A stretch of 64,000 nucleotides of DNA, taken from positions 9,662,616 through 9,726,615 of the forward strand of contig NC_061774.1 of assembly GCF_022458985.1 (NCBI RefSeq), written 5' to 3'. The position numbers and the translations under genes were made by a program. This document shows, piece after piece, positions 26,401 through 35,900 of this stretch. The stretch's first letter is position 1. Every line of letters begins with the position of its first letter. This DNA is from Mugil cephalus. Taxonomy: Eukaryota > Chordata > Actinopteri > Mugiliformes > Mugilidae. Below the pieces are notes generated by a model, which was not told where the DNA came from, ran no database searches, and saw nothing but the letters and a program-made list of their open reading frames with translations.

Positions 26401-28283
26401 AACCTCTATTTTCGTTGCATAAACACGAAAATGTGCTGCTGATTTTATACGTGATCTCACATGTGACCATTAATTATGTGGTTTTTGGACGGTTTCCCTG
26501 ACAAAGTAGTTACTTTGAACATTCAGCCCAAGAGATAATGAAAGGAAACGCTCAATGAATTGAATGGTTGCAGTCCCAGACCAGTGTTTTGACTTAAAAA
26601 GAATCTAAATGTTTCCTCAAATTGAAAAATGGACTTGGCTGCATGATATGAAAATGCCACCCTCTATTCACATCCTAAGGTGTACCCCCCCCCTTTAAAA
26701 GCAGGTCAATATTAAATCTTAAGGGTGATAAAGTGTGTTTACAGGCATACAGGATTTTGGATCGCACCAGTTCTCAATGGATAAATCTCATGAACACAGT
26801 GTGGCTGATGCATGTCACAAGTGGAATTCAGTTTATACAGACAGTGCCAATATCAATCCAGATTGTCTCAAGGCTCTTTATAGAACCCAGAGCTCGAAAC
26901 TATCATAGCAGTAAAGCGATGGCGGCTTCGCTATTTAACCAACAGAAACCTTGACGACAACCCAGCTCATATACACATGATCAAGCATCATGACTGACTT
27001 CCTAATATTGTGTAGGTCTCTCCTGTGCCTCCAAATCAGCTGTGACTCATCAGAGAATGGACACGGACCCTCTGAGGGTGTCCTGTGGTGTCTGGTAAAC
27101 ACAGTGTTGTTAGTGGGGGCCTTTGGGTCCAGTGTGTTGAGAGGAGGGGCCTCTTTGGATCAGACTTGTTCCAGTGCATCTTACAGACACTTTATCAGTC
27201 TGGGATCTGAGTTGAGTTGTTCATAAACCAGTTTTGTGTGTGTGCGCCTGTGTCAGGCTGCTTCCTGCTGGCTTCAAACAGTGTCATTGCTATGTGGTGG
27301 CACTTGGTCTGGTCTAGGTGGGTGGTACACGTCTAAATAACATTCACGTGAACGCCAGATCCAAACGTTTTCCAGAACAACAGTGTGTTGTCACAAGACG
27401 ATCATTGTTATTCACGTCTCCCGTCAGTGGTCACAGTGTTATGCCTTATCATTAAAGGCGTCAAGCCCATCTGCTTCAGGCCAGGTCGGTGGAGATATCA
27501 AAACAGAGAAAGGAGAGGAGAGAAAATGAAATGAACTCACTGGTCCGGTACTTGGGTCGACATGTTATCTGAAGACCGGTCACCTCTAAGGTGCAGTGAT
27601 CGGTCAGGAGAGCCTGCCAGGGGATGGTCACCGTTATGGTGCTCACGAAGCCGTCCACTATCTCCAGAGGAGCCCCGAGGGACTCCAGGAGCTCATTGAC
27701 CGCCTGAGGAAAAGAAGAAGCAGACAGGATAGGATGTGGAGGAAATAAAAAGTGAAAGAAATGTTTGCTTTGATATTTATCTCTTCGCTCTAAGTGCAGT
27801 CTAATGCACTCTGCTTAAGGGGTAAAGGAGTAGCTAAGTTAGCATGGTAGAGGTAAATCTATATCCATCCAGAGTGTTTTTACTCTTGTAAGAGATACAG
27901 CGGATCTGATGTGGTGTTGATGCGTTTCCCATGAGTACATTTCCTTGAAGAAATGCGAGACACACTCAAGAGCATGACGTTGAAGATTGTTGTTGAAGTC
28001 GAGTGCAGTTGCGAAAGTGTCAGGGTGCATGAGTTCAACAAAAACACACGATGACTGCTGCGGTGCTGCAAAGTTGACAGCCCACCCTCTCTCGTCTCTT
28101 TTACAAACTCACCCACACATCGAGGTTGATCTCCTTGATGACACCGCTGCCGTTGTACAGGTCCAAGCCCAGCTGGTCCAGGCTCAGTCGCTCTTGCAAA
28201 AAGTGACCGAGGTAGTGCTGTAAGAGGTACCGACAGGCCCGCTTCTTGATTGAGCCCGACCAGGGGAAAAGCCAGCGAGACAT
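8349..28283 (-). CDS. atg2a: Autophagy-related protein 2 homolog A (complete gene, 42 coding exons)
   Basis: ATG2 is a rod-shaped bridge-like lipid transfer protein that moves phospholipid from the ER to the growing autophagosome and also acts at lipid droplets. All 42 exons splice in frame into 2016 residues (human ATG2A 1938). The N-terminus MSRWLFPWSGSIKKRACRYL is the chorein-type lipid entry end. The C-terminus holds the conserved ATG2 C domain (QLPGILGGVGPMHSVVQL; RGLQRGAASFGTSTASAAL; IPPTVVRPLIVASEATSNLL). It is ATG2A rather than ATG2B: HPPPRHTSPTEIAGQKL, EVPIWLDYHGKHV and the tail near LLGGMRNQIKPD match ATG2A. Exon coordinates are given in the four block entries. All introns begin GT except the one after exon 18, which begins GC. 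Confidence 0.96.
11542..16256 (-). CDS. atg2a: atg2a exons 21-31 (residues 1009-1508)
   Basis: Exons in order: 16124-16256, 15824-16008, 15660-15740, 14766-14872, 14590-14682, 14351-14421, 13486-13562, 12701-12871, 12371-12497, 11880-12106, 11542-11771. Landmarks: LDPTIYPTEAGV (22), LVDFLDVIDDPILGYTAPAV (24), FILDDSALYLSDKCES (26), DYVCVLDIDLLELAITTWKG (27), LFELRCSNNVVHLHTCADSC (28). Exon 30 ends with DDFCILEAPGMGIP; FCIL at residues 1421-1424 aligns with the known ATG2A LC3/GABARAP-interacting motif. Exon 31 carries SHFSRPRGSSDLLRAP, the segment that in human ATG2A (with YFS) binds the WIPI4/WDR45 propeller. Confidence 0.93.
13794..13822 (+). repeat. (AAG)n microsatellite
   Basis: About nine AAG units in an atg2a intron. 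Simple repeat with no evidence of function. Confidence 0.9.
13964..14273. mobile_element. Short Tc1-family element with terminal inverted repeats
   Basis: A 310-base non-autonomous element in the atg2a intron between exons 26 and 27. The left end CACTCACAAGACAGTTTGTT and the reverse complement of the right end, CACTCACTGACCAGTTCAAT, are imperfect inverted repeats, followed on both sides by a GGGTACACTAG or AGGTACACTAG block. It belongs to the same group as the larger Tc1-like copy at 47374-48519. A related truncated copy lies at about 41508-41674. Confidence 0.7.
16368..20902 (-). CDS. atg2a: atg2a exons 10-20 (residues 452-1008)
   Basis: Exons in order: 20824-20902, 20479-20728, 19934-20075, 19535-19633, 18865-19020, 18031-18304, 17861-17933, 17264-17438, 17021-17163, 16690-16811, 16368-16525. 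Landmarks: LLRLTIGGLTLTLLQEDPP and RDFHHLRSGF (exon 11), LELLECLWEDGKPQY (12), LRLRFPIPDLRP (15), SPFSSNRTMFETEE (17), MVIPADPEEM and YILLPSKQAFQSIYNR (18), INNDLLMWEPPPPPP (19). Exon 18 must end at 17021, where the intron starts GCACGT, because only that junction (AAC AG | G ATC AAT) keeps YNRINNDL in frame. Using the GT four bases further on brings an immediate stop. Confidence 0.92.
21032..28283 (-). CDS. atg2a: atg2a exons 1-9 (residues 1-451)
   Basis: Exons in order: 28113-28283, 27541-27703, 26064-26213, 25541-25643, 23574-23718, 22311-22523, 22119-22218, 21690-21854, 21032-21174. Exon 1 (57 codons) and exon 2 hold the chorein N-terminal domain (HHYLGHF-type motif as HYLGHFLQERLSLDQLGLDL; PWQALLTDHCTLEVTGLQIT). 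Exon 3 carries MQLAQECLKD and PLEGLEMFAQTIET. Exon 5 reads VDIHQPPAFLHKILQLSAV. Exon 6 has an acidic run of Glu and Asp (coded by 22440-22490) before LLIGSCSGFIETTVKIKQN. Introns 2, 4 and 5 are the longest (1.0-1.8 kb) and hold repeat fragments. Confidence 0.93.
23280..23451 (+). mobile_element. Probable LINE 3' tail (L2/RTE-like)
   Basis: The stretch ends in TGCTTTACAAATAAAGTTAG followed by ATTGGATTAAG. This is the kind of 3' terminus seen on fish LINE copies (short AATAAAGTTGGATTGG-like tail). It lies in an atg2a intron on the opposite strand to the gene. No reverse transcriptase reading frame remains, so this is a 5'-truncated fragment if correct. Confidence 0.4.
26965..27446. mobile_element. 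Decayed Tc1/mariner-derived short element
   Basis: Located in atg2a intron 2. It contains TTCCTAATATTGTGTAGGTC near the left side, a GGGGCCTCTTTGGATCAGAC block, and the right end GTCAGTGGTCACAGTGTTAT. The same blocks occur in the better preserved copies at 52377-52790 and 42965-43351. The ends are worn and no transposase frame remains. Confidence 0.65.
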
Positions 28284-29917: not shown

Positions 29918-32900
29918 TCATTTTATGAACGCAACATCAGGGATCTTGCCTTCAGTCTGGAAAGGGAAAGAGGCATTTTAGCGCATTAGCACAACAACAA
30001 TTATGTTGGTAATGTGGTGAAAGAGATGAACACAGTAGGACTCATTTTACCTTCAACTGAGTGAAGATCTGTGCTGCTCTGTTGAAGTCCCACTCATTAT
30101 CTTGCAGACACCTGCAGAGACGAGTGATTAGACCATTCAAATTCATTCAATCATGATATCATGCGACACTGCCGAAACCACATGAGCAAAAAACCTAGAC
30201 CTACTTTTGCGACCATTCCAGGTTCATGCCTGACTTCACTGAGAAGGCCGTGAGCATCTCTTGCTGTGGTGCAGTGAGGGTCGGGACGGGACTGGAGGAT
30301 GGGGTCGGGGCGGGAGCCACAAAAGCTCTGCGGATCTCTTCTGTTGTGGCCATTCGGATGAAAAGCTGGTCGTTGACGATGCACAAACTGTCACAGGAGG
30401 AGCAGAGAAAGATGAGACCTGAGTGTTCGTTCATATCACATGGAGATCACCGTTCTTTATGGTTTCCTATGACATGTTCAGTTCAACAACAGGAAGATGA
30501 CACAAACCACTGGAAGTCAACTCAACGTACCCAGAATTTCCTGCCGGGACTGTAACAAAGACTCTCGAGAAGGCCATTGTGGATTCTCTGGATTTACCAT
30601 CAACAACAACTGAAAAACACACAAATACATGAGCAACAAAATCAACACTTTTTATATTGTGCTGGATAAGAAAGAAGAATCTTAGATCCTGACGACGGAG
30701 CCACTCACCTTCTTTAAAGACTCCGCTCACTGTGAATGACAGTAGTGTGTTCTGTAAACAGAAACCATTTTGCCAAGTTAGAACAGGGAAACAATTCACA
30801 ATGAGAGAAGACGACGTGTGTGGTCAACAGATCAAACATCAACTCACCGTGCACGTGTTTACGTCAACTGTAAAGGAGGCGATGTCGTGCTGAGTTTTCG
30901 GCAGCTCGTTGAGGAAAGCCACCACATTCAGGCGCGTGTGTTTCAGCAGTCGATACCGTATCGCTAAAGTACGAAGGATTCAGAGAGAAGTGTCAGGAGG
31001 AGTCACAAATATATTCAGCCTCTACAACACAGACAAGACAGGTGAACAGCTCAACATGGAAACTCACTGGTGTCTTTGATCCTCTTCAAGTTTCGACTGT
31101 CTTTGTGATACTCTCCCAGACTGCTCCTAAAAATCAGCAGAGGGACAATTAATGGAGCTACAGCTCAGGAGAGGGATCAACCGTCCATATGTGATAAGAG
31201 TCAAACAGGTTCTTCAGGATCATGCATTATGAATAATGAAGAAGGTTCTACTGTGGTAAAATAAAATGGAAAATCTTCAATAGCTTGCATCCACTTAAAC
31301 AACACTACATGTGTTGATCCAAGTCATTAGTTACACTGTGCATGTTCTTACCTGGAGGGGTTCTGGGTGGAGTACGGTGTTGTGAGGGATAACGAGGCTC
31401 CGTCATGGTAGGCATCCAGGAGGGGCTGCCTGTCCCCAGAGTCATATATACTGTAGTACCTGCAACACAGTCGCACCGTTAGTTTGCTCTGTTACTATCA
31501 CCACCATCTTTGCCTGTTGCAAGACGATTGTGTATATAAAGAAGTTGAAACTTACTGTTGCAAGAACCGAAGGATGTGAGCCTTGATTTCATCAGAGCCA
31601 AAACAGCTGCCCTGAATTATCAAACAAGAAGCTTTTGTCAGGCACATCAGGGCGACAATAACTGTATTGAGACTTTCATCAGCAGGAACACAAAGTAGTT
31701 TAACAGTAACATTAATGGAGTGGTTGTGCTCAGTATCTGATACACACGTGGAGGTAACTTACACAATTAATACACTCACCTTGCATGGCGGGATAGTGGT
31801 CGGCGTTTCCACGTCGAATCCAATGGGCGGAGGGAGATCATAACCATCCTGGAGGAAATGACACACGAAGAAAGATACATGAGACATAAATAATCACTGG
31901 TCAAATCAAATTTACAAATAAAGAGTGTGAACTTACCAGTTTGAGAAGCCGGGGAAACCTCTCCCGCACGGCACTGGTACGGGAACAAAAACCAAGAACA
32001 GTAAAGTTAGCACAAGAAAGCAGGTCCCCCACACACACACACACAAATAAATAAGGCTCATTATTTGCATATACCACTGTCAGTCACACCTGTTGATCCA
32101 TTTAGCATCACTTTGTGCTTTTCAGAGGTTTTAACCTGTTACACTTTGAAACTGATTTGGGAGAATATATTCATGTATAGATGGAGTAGAAATGTAACTA
32201 CAACCACGGCCACAAGTCATTTAATGTCCTGTTTACATTTAAATTCAGAAACTGACTAACATACACGCTCTTAGTTTCATGCTGTGCTCTTTGACTTCTC
32301 CCACCCCGGAGTGTACTTACCAGCAGGTATACTCACCCTCTCCCCCAATATGTTGATTTACACAGATCTGACATGGAGAAGCAACACAACCACACTTTTC
32401 TAGGAACACACACACACAAACATGCAGAGTCCACGATCTACCAGGCTGTACTGGAAACCAGCAAGCACATCCATCTTGAGTTAGGAAAAATAAAAAGGTT
32501 ATGCGTTTCTGGGAGAGAGGTGGTTACCGCCAGTCTCGTGTCAACTTCCCTCCCACACTCTGGCAAGTTTGTGGAACAGAGGAGTCACCAAAACACAACA
32601 CAAGGTCTAAAAAATCTTCAGATACACTCGCACAGGTAGCCTGTTATTTAGATGACATGCCAATCATTAACCGAGCAACTTTGTCAGTGTCCACACCCTT
32701 GATTATGGCCACAGAAAGAACCTGAGAACAGAGTTGAACAAACAAGACAGCAGGCCTCAAAGTGAGCTGAACCCAGCAGCCCCACCACCCATCCCATAGC
32801 CTCCCTTATTGCACAAACAAAGCAGATATAAGTTAATGATCTCACCCCCATCATCATCATCATCATCATGATTGCCCCATCATCACTAAAGTTATTATAA

Positions 32901-35900
32901 AGGCTTTTTATTTTCTTGACTAATTTGGTCCAAGTTTCTGGTTACAGAGGGACTTAAAAAACATTATACGCTGAACTAGATTCAACTAGAGGGATAATTC
33001 TCTTCTCCCTGAGATTATTCACCGAGCTTCTCTGTACTGGTCACAGCCATCAGAAACTGGAAGAGGAAATGTTTTCCCCTTTTTATTTCATTTGACGTTT
33101 CAGGCAAAGCTGAACCTTCAATTTCCAGTTCAGAACACATTGCCCTCAGAGGTTAGTATTTGTCAAACTCTCCACTCCGCAGAGGCCTGTTTTAGGCGAA
33201 CGAGATCAGACTTAGCGGAAGAGACGAGTGTTTTTTTTCCATGGCTCATGATTGGTCATTAATAATGACACAGAACCCTCTCCACCTCAGCCCAACGGCT
33301 TCACCCGTGGAGTCCCGTCTTCTCAGTTCCTTCAACGTGCTCTCAATGAGTATGAACTCATGGGGACTAAGACCGAGTAATCGTGACTGTGCCTGCCTTA
33401 GGTTGTCCCGGGGTTTCGAGGTGGGATCTTACCCGTCATGGGCTATCCAGCCTTCCATACTCGCTTGTTACAGGGGGCCGAGTGGGCACGGGTGCTATGA
33501 GGGGAGGGGAATCATTGGCTGTGGATTCTCTGTGTTTCATCCAAACATCTGTGAAGATGAAAATGGATGGCCCTCTCTCCAATACCGCTACACAGCACTG
33601 CTCAAGGTTATTCTGGATTCATGTTTCTGAAACCCTAAATGGTATATTAGGGTTGTAATGCCAAAAATATTATTTTTTTAAAAAGAGTTTCTACTCAGTT
33701 ACAATCACCAGCGGATTGATAGTGTTTCACACCGGTTTAATGGGACGACTAATCAGGATGTCAGCAGGGGGGGTGCTGGGTAGAGCGTCACCAAGGACCA
33801 TGAAACCAAGAGGAGACCAAAGCTCAAAAGGACGTCCCACAGAGAAGCTGAAACTGGCAGAGAAGGTGGAAGGTGGTTTAGCAAGCTGAAAAGAAAACAT
33901 GGTTCTGTACTGGAGGTGGACGTCCTCTTCCAGAACATCTCTTGGAAGTAAGAAATGTTTAGGTTGCAGAGGGAAAAGAAAAACATTAATCACCAAGAGA
34001 AGCAATGTGAAACATAAAGAGGATTGTTCTTTTAAAATGTCCAGCTGCTTAATGCATAGACATGTTGCATAACTGTACAGTAAACAACACGTGTGCAAGT
34101 GCACATGTAGGTTACTTAAGTGCACTGTACATGTCAGACTCTATGCAGACGTAAATCAGCAGGTAGAGATGCTGTAGAGAATGGAACATCTATATATTAT
34201 GGTTACGGTTTTCCCCGACCTCGTCTGTCTGTCTCTCACAAACACGCACCTGGATTAAAGTTGTTAGTGAAAGTCAACAGGTCCAGTGTTCATCATACTG
34301 GGAAAAGGCTGTCAGTCATTGCATAGCCATTTTACAGATAAAACACAAAGGTGGGTGTGATCTTCTTATGTAACAGGCTGATGCATACTTCTGTTATACA
34401 GGAGAGGCTCCTGGGCACTCACACGAAACAGTCACACCACCGAATTGTCACAATAAAAATGTTTACTTGTCACCCCCCTAGAATCGTGGACTGACCTGAT
34501 GTATGAGGTCTGGTCCTTGAAGAGGTCACACAGAGGGTTCCTGTTCAGCCACAGCTCCACCAGCTTCAGACCTTTCACCTTGTCCAGCTCCCGGTCTGAC
34601 TTCAGCTGTAGAGAACAGAACAACATTGTTGAACATTTAACAATTACACACACACCAGCTGCAAGGGGGATAAATATACATTTAACAACAATATAATGTT
34701 TAAAAAGTATTGTGCCTTTTATGAACCGAGGAGCCAGTCTCACCTCGTTGTGGGAAAGGTTGAGAGTCTTCAGATTAGGCACTTTGGTAACCAATTCAGT
34801 GAGTTCATCCAGTTTGTGGATGCGGTTGTTACTCAGGTTCAAGCAGGTAAGCTGGCAAGAGGACAGAAGACTGTTCATACACACGACCCTAGAGTTCATC
34901 ATCTGTGCTTATTTCAAGAAAATATTCCAAGAAAAGAAAAGTGTCTGATCAGTGTTAATGTTACCTCAGGAATGTTTTCTTCAATGATTTTGAGGACAGC
35001 TTCCATGTTTGTCTTCCTATTCAAGATCACTTCAATGTTTTGGGACACCAGGTCTGTCACATAAAATGTATAGTGTGAAGTATAAATAAAAAACACACAT
35101 ATGACACATAAGAAAATAATTCACAGCCATATATTAACAACATTTAAAGACTTATGAAAATATAAATACCTGGGTCTGTTCGGATGTTGTTCAAGTCCAG
35201 TGCTTGCTGGGAGCCGTCAAAACGTTTTGCCATGCATTGCTGTGAAAGAGGCCATTCAATATAAACAGTGTATAATCAGATCTATAATCAGTCACATTAA
35301 ATGAATCTGGAATCACATTATTTGACACTTAAACCGCTGTTTTAAAATGTATGTGATTCAGGTGGCTTCTTGTTTTCTCCAGTTTACCTTCAGGTGCTCC
35401 AAGTGTTCAGGCTTCAGGTCTGACAGGAGGAAGGATGGTGGAGCACTGTTGTTGACATGCACTTCAACCTTAAAGAAACAAACACACAACACAGATTTGA
35501 ACCCTGAGATATACAACACATGTCTAATTTTAGATCAAGTGTCATTTATTCACTACATGAAAGCTGTGGTTGCAAAACTATTCCGGGACAACATCAAAGA
35601 AGTTGTACAGCATAGCAATTAACTGTAAGCTGAAGCCAACAATTCAGTGGGGTAACATGATCCATCTGTAAAGGAAATTAGACAAGTGAGGTTTCCATTT
35701 TTGCCCCCAACATACCTTATAACCATCTGTGTCTGTGATCTTGTGAGAACATTTGTGCAAAGCACTGGCGGCAGCTGAATCATCCACATAGAAATGGACC
35801 CTGCTATGGTCAACGTGGTACTGGATTGACAGGAATAAAAGAAATGTAGTTAGAACTGACTTAAAACAAGTTTCATAATTTGTCTCTGGAGAATGTTTAT

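Follow-up and report, generated by a model that had tools for sequence, protein, structure and literature searches.

Does the nxf1 gene of Mugil cephalus carry, inside one of its introns, a constitutive transport element (CTE), the kind of RNA structure through which NXF1 would recognise its own intron-retaining transcript? The question is raised by a 64,000-nt stretch of DNA (contig NC_061774.1, positions 9,662,616–9,726,615; hereafter the window, whose numbering is used throughout), which is the site of the sole nxf1 gene found in the 635 Mb genome. According to our exon model, the nxf1 coding region (38189–29918, minus strand) consists of 22 coding exons encoding 660 residues, with all 21 introns of the GT-AG type. 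Its product shows the Pfam domains Tap-RNA_bind, LRR_NXF1-5, NXF_NTF2 and TAP_C, and among solved structures the closest chains carry the name Nuclear RNA export factor 1. When the same genome (634.8 Mb, 24 contigs) was searched with the protein at E up to 0.001, the best candidates comprised six matches, every one inside nxf1, so that the search revealed no paralogue down to this cut-off. In the exon model, the acceptor used for the exon starting at 30609 (minus strand) adds two residues (VV) with respect to the solved NXF1 chain, which may be either a real insertion or the result of another acceptor being used in the cell. Downstream of nxf1, on the same strand, another gene starts, with a first exon (28113–28283) similar to the ATG2 N-terminus (Pfam ATG2_CAD, E 1.1e-5; its 23.9 bits fall short of the curated cut-off of 50).

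The intron following the LRR exons (34495–31974, minus strand) is indeed unusually long, as had been remarked in a preliminary description of this DNA: with 2,522 nt it is the longest of the gene, the other 20 introns ranging from 62 to 1,025 nt. From its place after the LRR exons, we infer that its counterpart in mammalian NXF1 is intron 10, which bears the CTE. Its donor, GTCAGT, had been described as weak. Its score is 7.4 with a matrix built from the other 20 donors of the gene, of which 9 have lower values in a leave-one-out comparison; by this yardstick the site does not come out as weak, though GTCAGT is the only one of the 21 nxf1 donors with C at position +3. The reading frame that enters the intron from the LRR exons (34495–34432) adds 21 residues before the stop codon at 34434–34432, thus intron retention would give an NXF1 without the NTF2-like and UBA domains. 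An early end of the frame had been correctly anticipated, with a count of about 19 residues in place of 21. Elsewhere in the intron, a 72-codon open stretch (33727–33945, minus strand) had no Pfam match and appears by eye richer in C than its surroundings. AATAAA/ATTAAA words occur at 33741, 33087, 32912 and 32225 (minus strand), all but the first lying downstream of the element described below, and a retained-intron transcript could end at these words.

Within this intron, the sense (minus) strand at 33440–33391 reads CATGACGGGTAAGATCCCACCTCGAAACCCCGGGACAACCTAAGGCAGGC, as previously quoted, and comprises the two loop strands of a CTE half-site in the order CATGACGGGTAAGA, a UCCC/GGGA hairpin and AACCTAAGGCAGGC. 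As reference loop strands we used the primers printed for the SRV-1 half-CTE in PMC4330393. Compared with these primers, strand 1 (core GACGGGTAA, 33437–33429) is identical at 9/9 positions and strand 2 (AACCTAAGGCAGG, 33404–33392) at 12/13; the closing C is preserved at 2/2 positions and 4/5 stem positions are paired, giving 27/29. The paired stem positions (UCCC, 33426–33423, with GGGA, 33409–33406, enclosing a 13-nt loop) have both letters different from SRV-1, and the fifth position keeps its A, unpaired. In strand 2, an A to G change falls inside the AAGACA motif, which is described as conserved in the internal loop of each symmetrical unit of the retroviral CTE (PMC4330393) and which reads AAGGCA in the fish element (5/6 letters). 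The spacing of the closing C/G pairs, the loop strands, the GGGU/ACCU helix and the next stem is the same as in the SRV-1/MPMV half-site. Unlike the SRV-1/MPMV half-site, the fish sequence has strand 1 first and strand 2 second, probably corresponding to the order of one of the two rotated CTE halves.

The CTE of type D retroviruses (SRV-1/MPMV) has two NXF1-binding loops in 2-fold symmetry; unlike it, the fish element has a single loop, and no second canonical half-site occurs in the 2,522-nt intron. That only one arm is clear therefore holds, but this is no shortcoming, for a single loop is also what the 96-nt human NXF1 CTE has (PMC6478720), and the concern over a second arm thus disappears. 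A second arm composed of the strand-2-like CCTAAAACAGG (33196–33186, minus strand) and the strand-1-like CACGGGTGA (33309–33301, minus strand) was considered and discarded, as by eye it does not have half-site geometry. The CCTAAAACAGG sequence at 33186–33196 lies about 200 nt downstream of the element in the same intron.

A match of this kind could be due to chance, if two short strands fell into the proper order in an otherwise random intron sequence. The descriptor of 29 positions reaches 27 at the element, as compared with a best value of 25 in 3,437 dinucleotide-shuffled windows, 22 at the next-ranking site of that strand and a maximum of 23 in 200 kb of real sequence (20 stretches of 10 kb from the same genome). 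This descriptor was fixed after aligning the fish element with the primers and is thus partly post hoc, a point in favour of chance; so is the looser score on the loop strands alone, weaker evidence than the 29-position descriptor, which amounts to 22/26 at the element and was equalled by 5 of 600 shuffled windows. Against chance stands the exact two-strand pattern, GACGGGTAA-N15..45-CCTAAGRCAGG, where R was permitted because the fish element has G there. It was matched once in the window (none in 100 shuffles) and once in the entire 634.8 Mb; this one genomic match lies in the very intron in which a CTE was expected, on its sense strand, and the backward control gave none. Assuming uniform base composition, 0.07 chance matches are expected genome-wide, and the probability that a lone chance match lands in the nxf1 intron on the right strand is about 2e-6. 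We consider a fortuitous match very unlikely.

Another origin for the sequence would be an inserted fish retrovirus that bore a CTE and of which the element is a relic. Type D retroviruses do carry elements of this type, as reported in PMC4330390, but the 151-nt stretch around the element has one match only in its own genome, the pattern is matched once with its strands in this order and not at all with them in the opposite order (gap 15–60), and PMC4829213 argues for the reverse direction, from cell to virus. Of the explanations considered, we regard a relic as the least probable. In IMG/VR, two contigs showed the other strand order and none the order of the fish element; the match in one of the two falls within a reading frame of 283 residues resembling a phage lysin and was discarded. 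No Rfam family, whether or not a CTE family is included, matched the window at the gathering score, and the seven matches obtained at E up to 10 in 32500–35500 were weak and unrelated.

The canonical fold of the element is a rod with one internal loop. From the apex outwards it comprises the UCCC/GGGA stem (33426–33406 with its loop), the inner helix GGGU/ACCU (33434–33431 with 33403–33400), the internal loop CAUGAC/AAGGCA, the closing stem GCC/GGC (33443–33441 with 33393–33391), the middle helix GGCUG/CAGUC (33452–33448 with 33389–33385) and the outer helix CGAGUA/UACUCG (33463–33458 with 33379–33374). The preliminary description had placed the element at 33385–33450; the core is inside these limits, while the whole element likely reaches further, to about 33463–33374. 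With the loop pairs imposed, the rod 33463–33374 has an energy of -23.6 kcal/mol, within 1.1 kcal/mol of the free minimum of the 96-mer 33370–33465 (-24.7). Extending both ends by 10 bases lets other folds prevail (-26.0 vs -23.6); similarly, the probability of the middle helix is 0.88–0.91 in the 96-mer and 0.08–0.09 in the 116-mer, and that of the outer helix 0.85–1.0 and 0.08–0.10, respectively. The stable paired structure proposed earlier is thus close to the minimum in the short piece and loses to other folds in longer ones.

The energy of free folding is ordinary, with 195 of 200 shuffles at least as stable for the 136-mer and 599 of 1,000 for the 96-mer, a point in favour of chance. When the loop was held and the flanks were shuffled, only 25 of 5,000 sequences were as good (44 of 2,000 shuffling the hairpin only, 57 of 2,000 shuffling the lower flanks only). 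The result varied with flank length: per 2,000 shuffles, 69 were as good with flanks of 20 nt, 11 with 25 nt, 28 with 30 nt, 691 with 40 nt and 250 with 50 nt. Folding supports, therefore, a local rod only, with flanks of 20, 25 and 30 nt and not with those of 40 and 50 nt. The folding program also favours a non-canonical fold when given a model SRV-1 half-site (-9.7 vs -9.0), hence its silence on the fish rod is weak evidence.

Loop strand 1 also overlaps a splice-donor-like sequence, CGG/GTAAGA (33435–33427, minus strand), and the arrangement could accordingly be one of splice sites, with strand 1 acting as the donor of a poison exon (33548–33433 or 33494–33433) and the resemblance to a CTE being secondary. 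With the matrix derived from the other nxf1 donors, this possible donor scores 7.8, as compared with 7.4 for the true donor of the intron. Exons of 116 or 62 nt would result from acceptors at 33548 (score 7.3) and 33494 (5.7), and both hypothetical exons carry an in-frame stop. Nevertheless, the intron contains pseudo-exons with higher scores (best sum 20.7 vs 15.2), so that the strand 1 donor can be taken as a lead only, and splice signals leave unexplained both the 12/13 match of strand 2 and the paired stem; we regard a mere splice-site arrangement as very unlikely, slightly more so than a fortuitous match. The two functions could also be combined in a two-way switch, a single RNA site through which NXF1 would decide which of two routes its own mRNA takes. 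With NXF1 scarce, the strand 1 donor would be free and the poison exon could be spliced in; with NXF1 abundant, the loop would be clamped, the donor hidden in the GGGU/ACCU helix, and the exported form would be the intron-retaining one, encoding a short NXF1. We mention this switch as a long shot.

Position in the post-LRR intron, sense orientation, letters of the loop strands with their order and spacing, loop geometry, and stem pairing by letters differing from those of SRV-1, together with the frame ending soon after the LRR, all fit a CTE of an NXF1 intron, in support of the first reading of the sequence. Our best explanation, to which we assign a probability of roughly 85%, is that the segment 33463–33374 (minus strand) corresponds in the fish to the NXF1-gene CTE and exports intron-retaining nxf1 mRNA. 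Given that the structure in this nxf1 intron closely resembles the one NXF1 recognises in monkey retroviruses and in mammals, export of an unspliced nxf1 transcript is probable in the fish as well. When the post-LRR intron is kept in nxf1 mRNA, the RNA would fold in the cell into a rod with one internal loop, to which NXF1:NXT1 would bind directly, leading to export of the intron-retaining mRNA and to translation of the short NXF1. Since NXF1 would bind its own transcript, the element could act as a feedback on the NXF1 level.

For the fish protein, residues were numbered on chain 6e5u, which we take to be human NXF1 ending at residue 619. Contact residues R233, R276, K304 and R307 are kept in the fish and R279 is replaced by K. 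The NXF1 residues that contact the CTE are listed in PMC4330390; 12 of the 20 are identical in the fish, a share close to that of the aligned stretch overall (119/206), which gives no support for a special conservation of the contacts.

A CTE in intron 10 of mammalian NXF1 was reportedly described by Li et al. in 2006. Wang, Rekosh and Hammarskjold are said to have reported in 2015, in the journal RNA, NXF1 CTEs of zebrafish and coelacanth, the zebrafish one working in human cells when supplied with zebrafish Nxf1 and Nxt; the likeness to our element is that of a CTE in a fish nxf1 gene. The mammalian system shares with the fish one the same gene, the post-LRR intron, the sense strand, the single internal loop and a retained intron leading to a short NXF1, the two being likened by place and architecture, with binding and export predicted in the fish. 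In mammals, NXF1 binds intron 10 of its own transcript (PMC4782049; PMC6675937), NXF1-GFP lowered endogenous NXF1 (PMC4782049), and the intron-containing NXF1 mRNA encodes a short form able to bind RNA and not the nuclear pore complex (PMC5963917). By title and start of abstract, no report of this element in fish was present among the matches listed in the open-licence literature, a body that subscription papers are mostly outside of, and, judged likewise, none of the 15 papers containing one of six letter strings of the element concerned NXF1 or a CTE. Taken as another NXF1 intron CTE, the element is well supported by its sequence and place, from which its function is predicted.

If this reading is correct, M. 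cephalus would be one more fish among the species with an NXF1 self-recognition element, which would support a vertebrate age for it. With one changed loop base and exchanged stem letters, the element would also be a natural variant for testing which parts of the structure are read by NXF1. Finally, a CTE residing in a fish nxf1 intron would fit the view put forward in PMC4829213, according to which retroviruses acquired their CTE from the cell.
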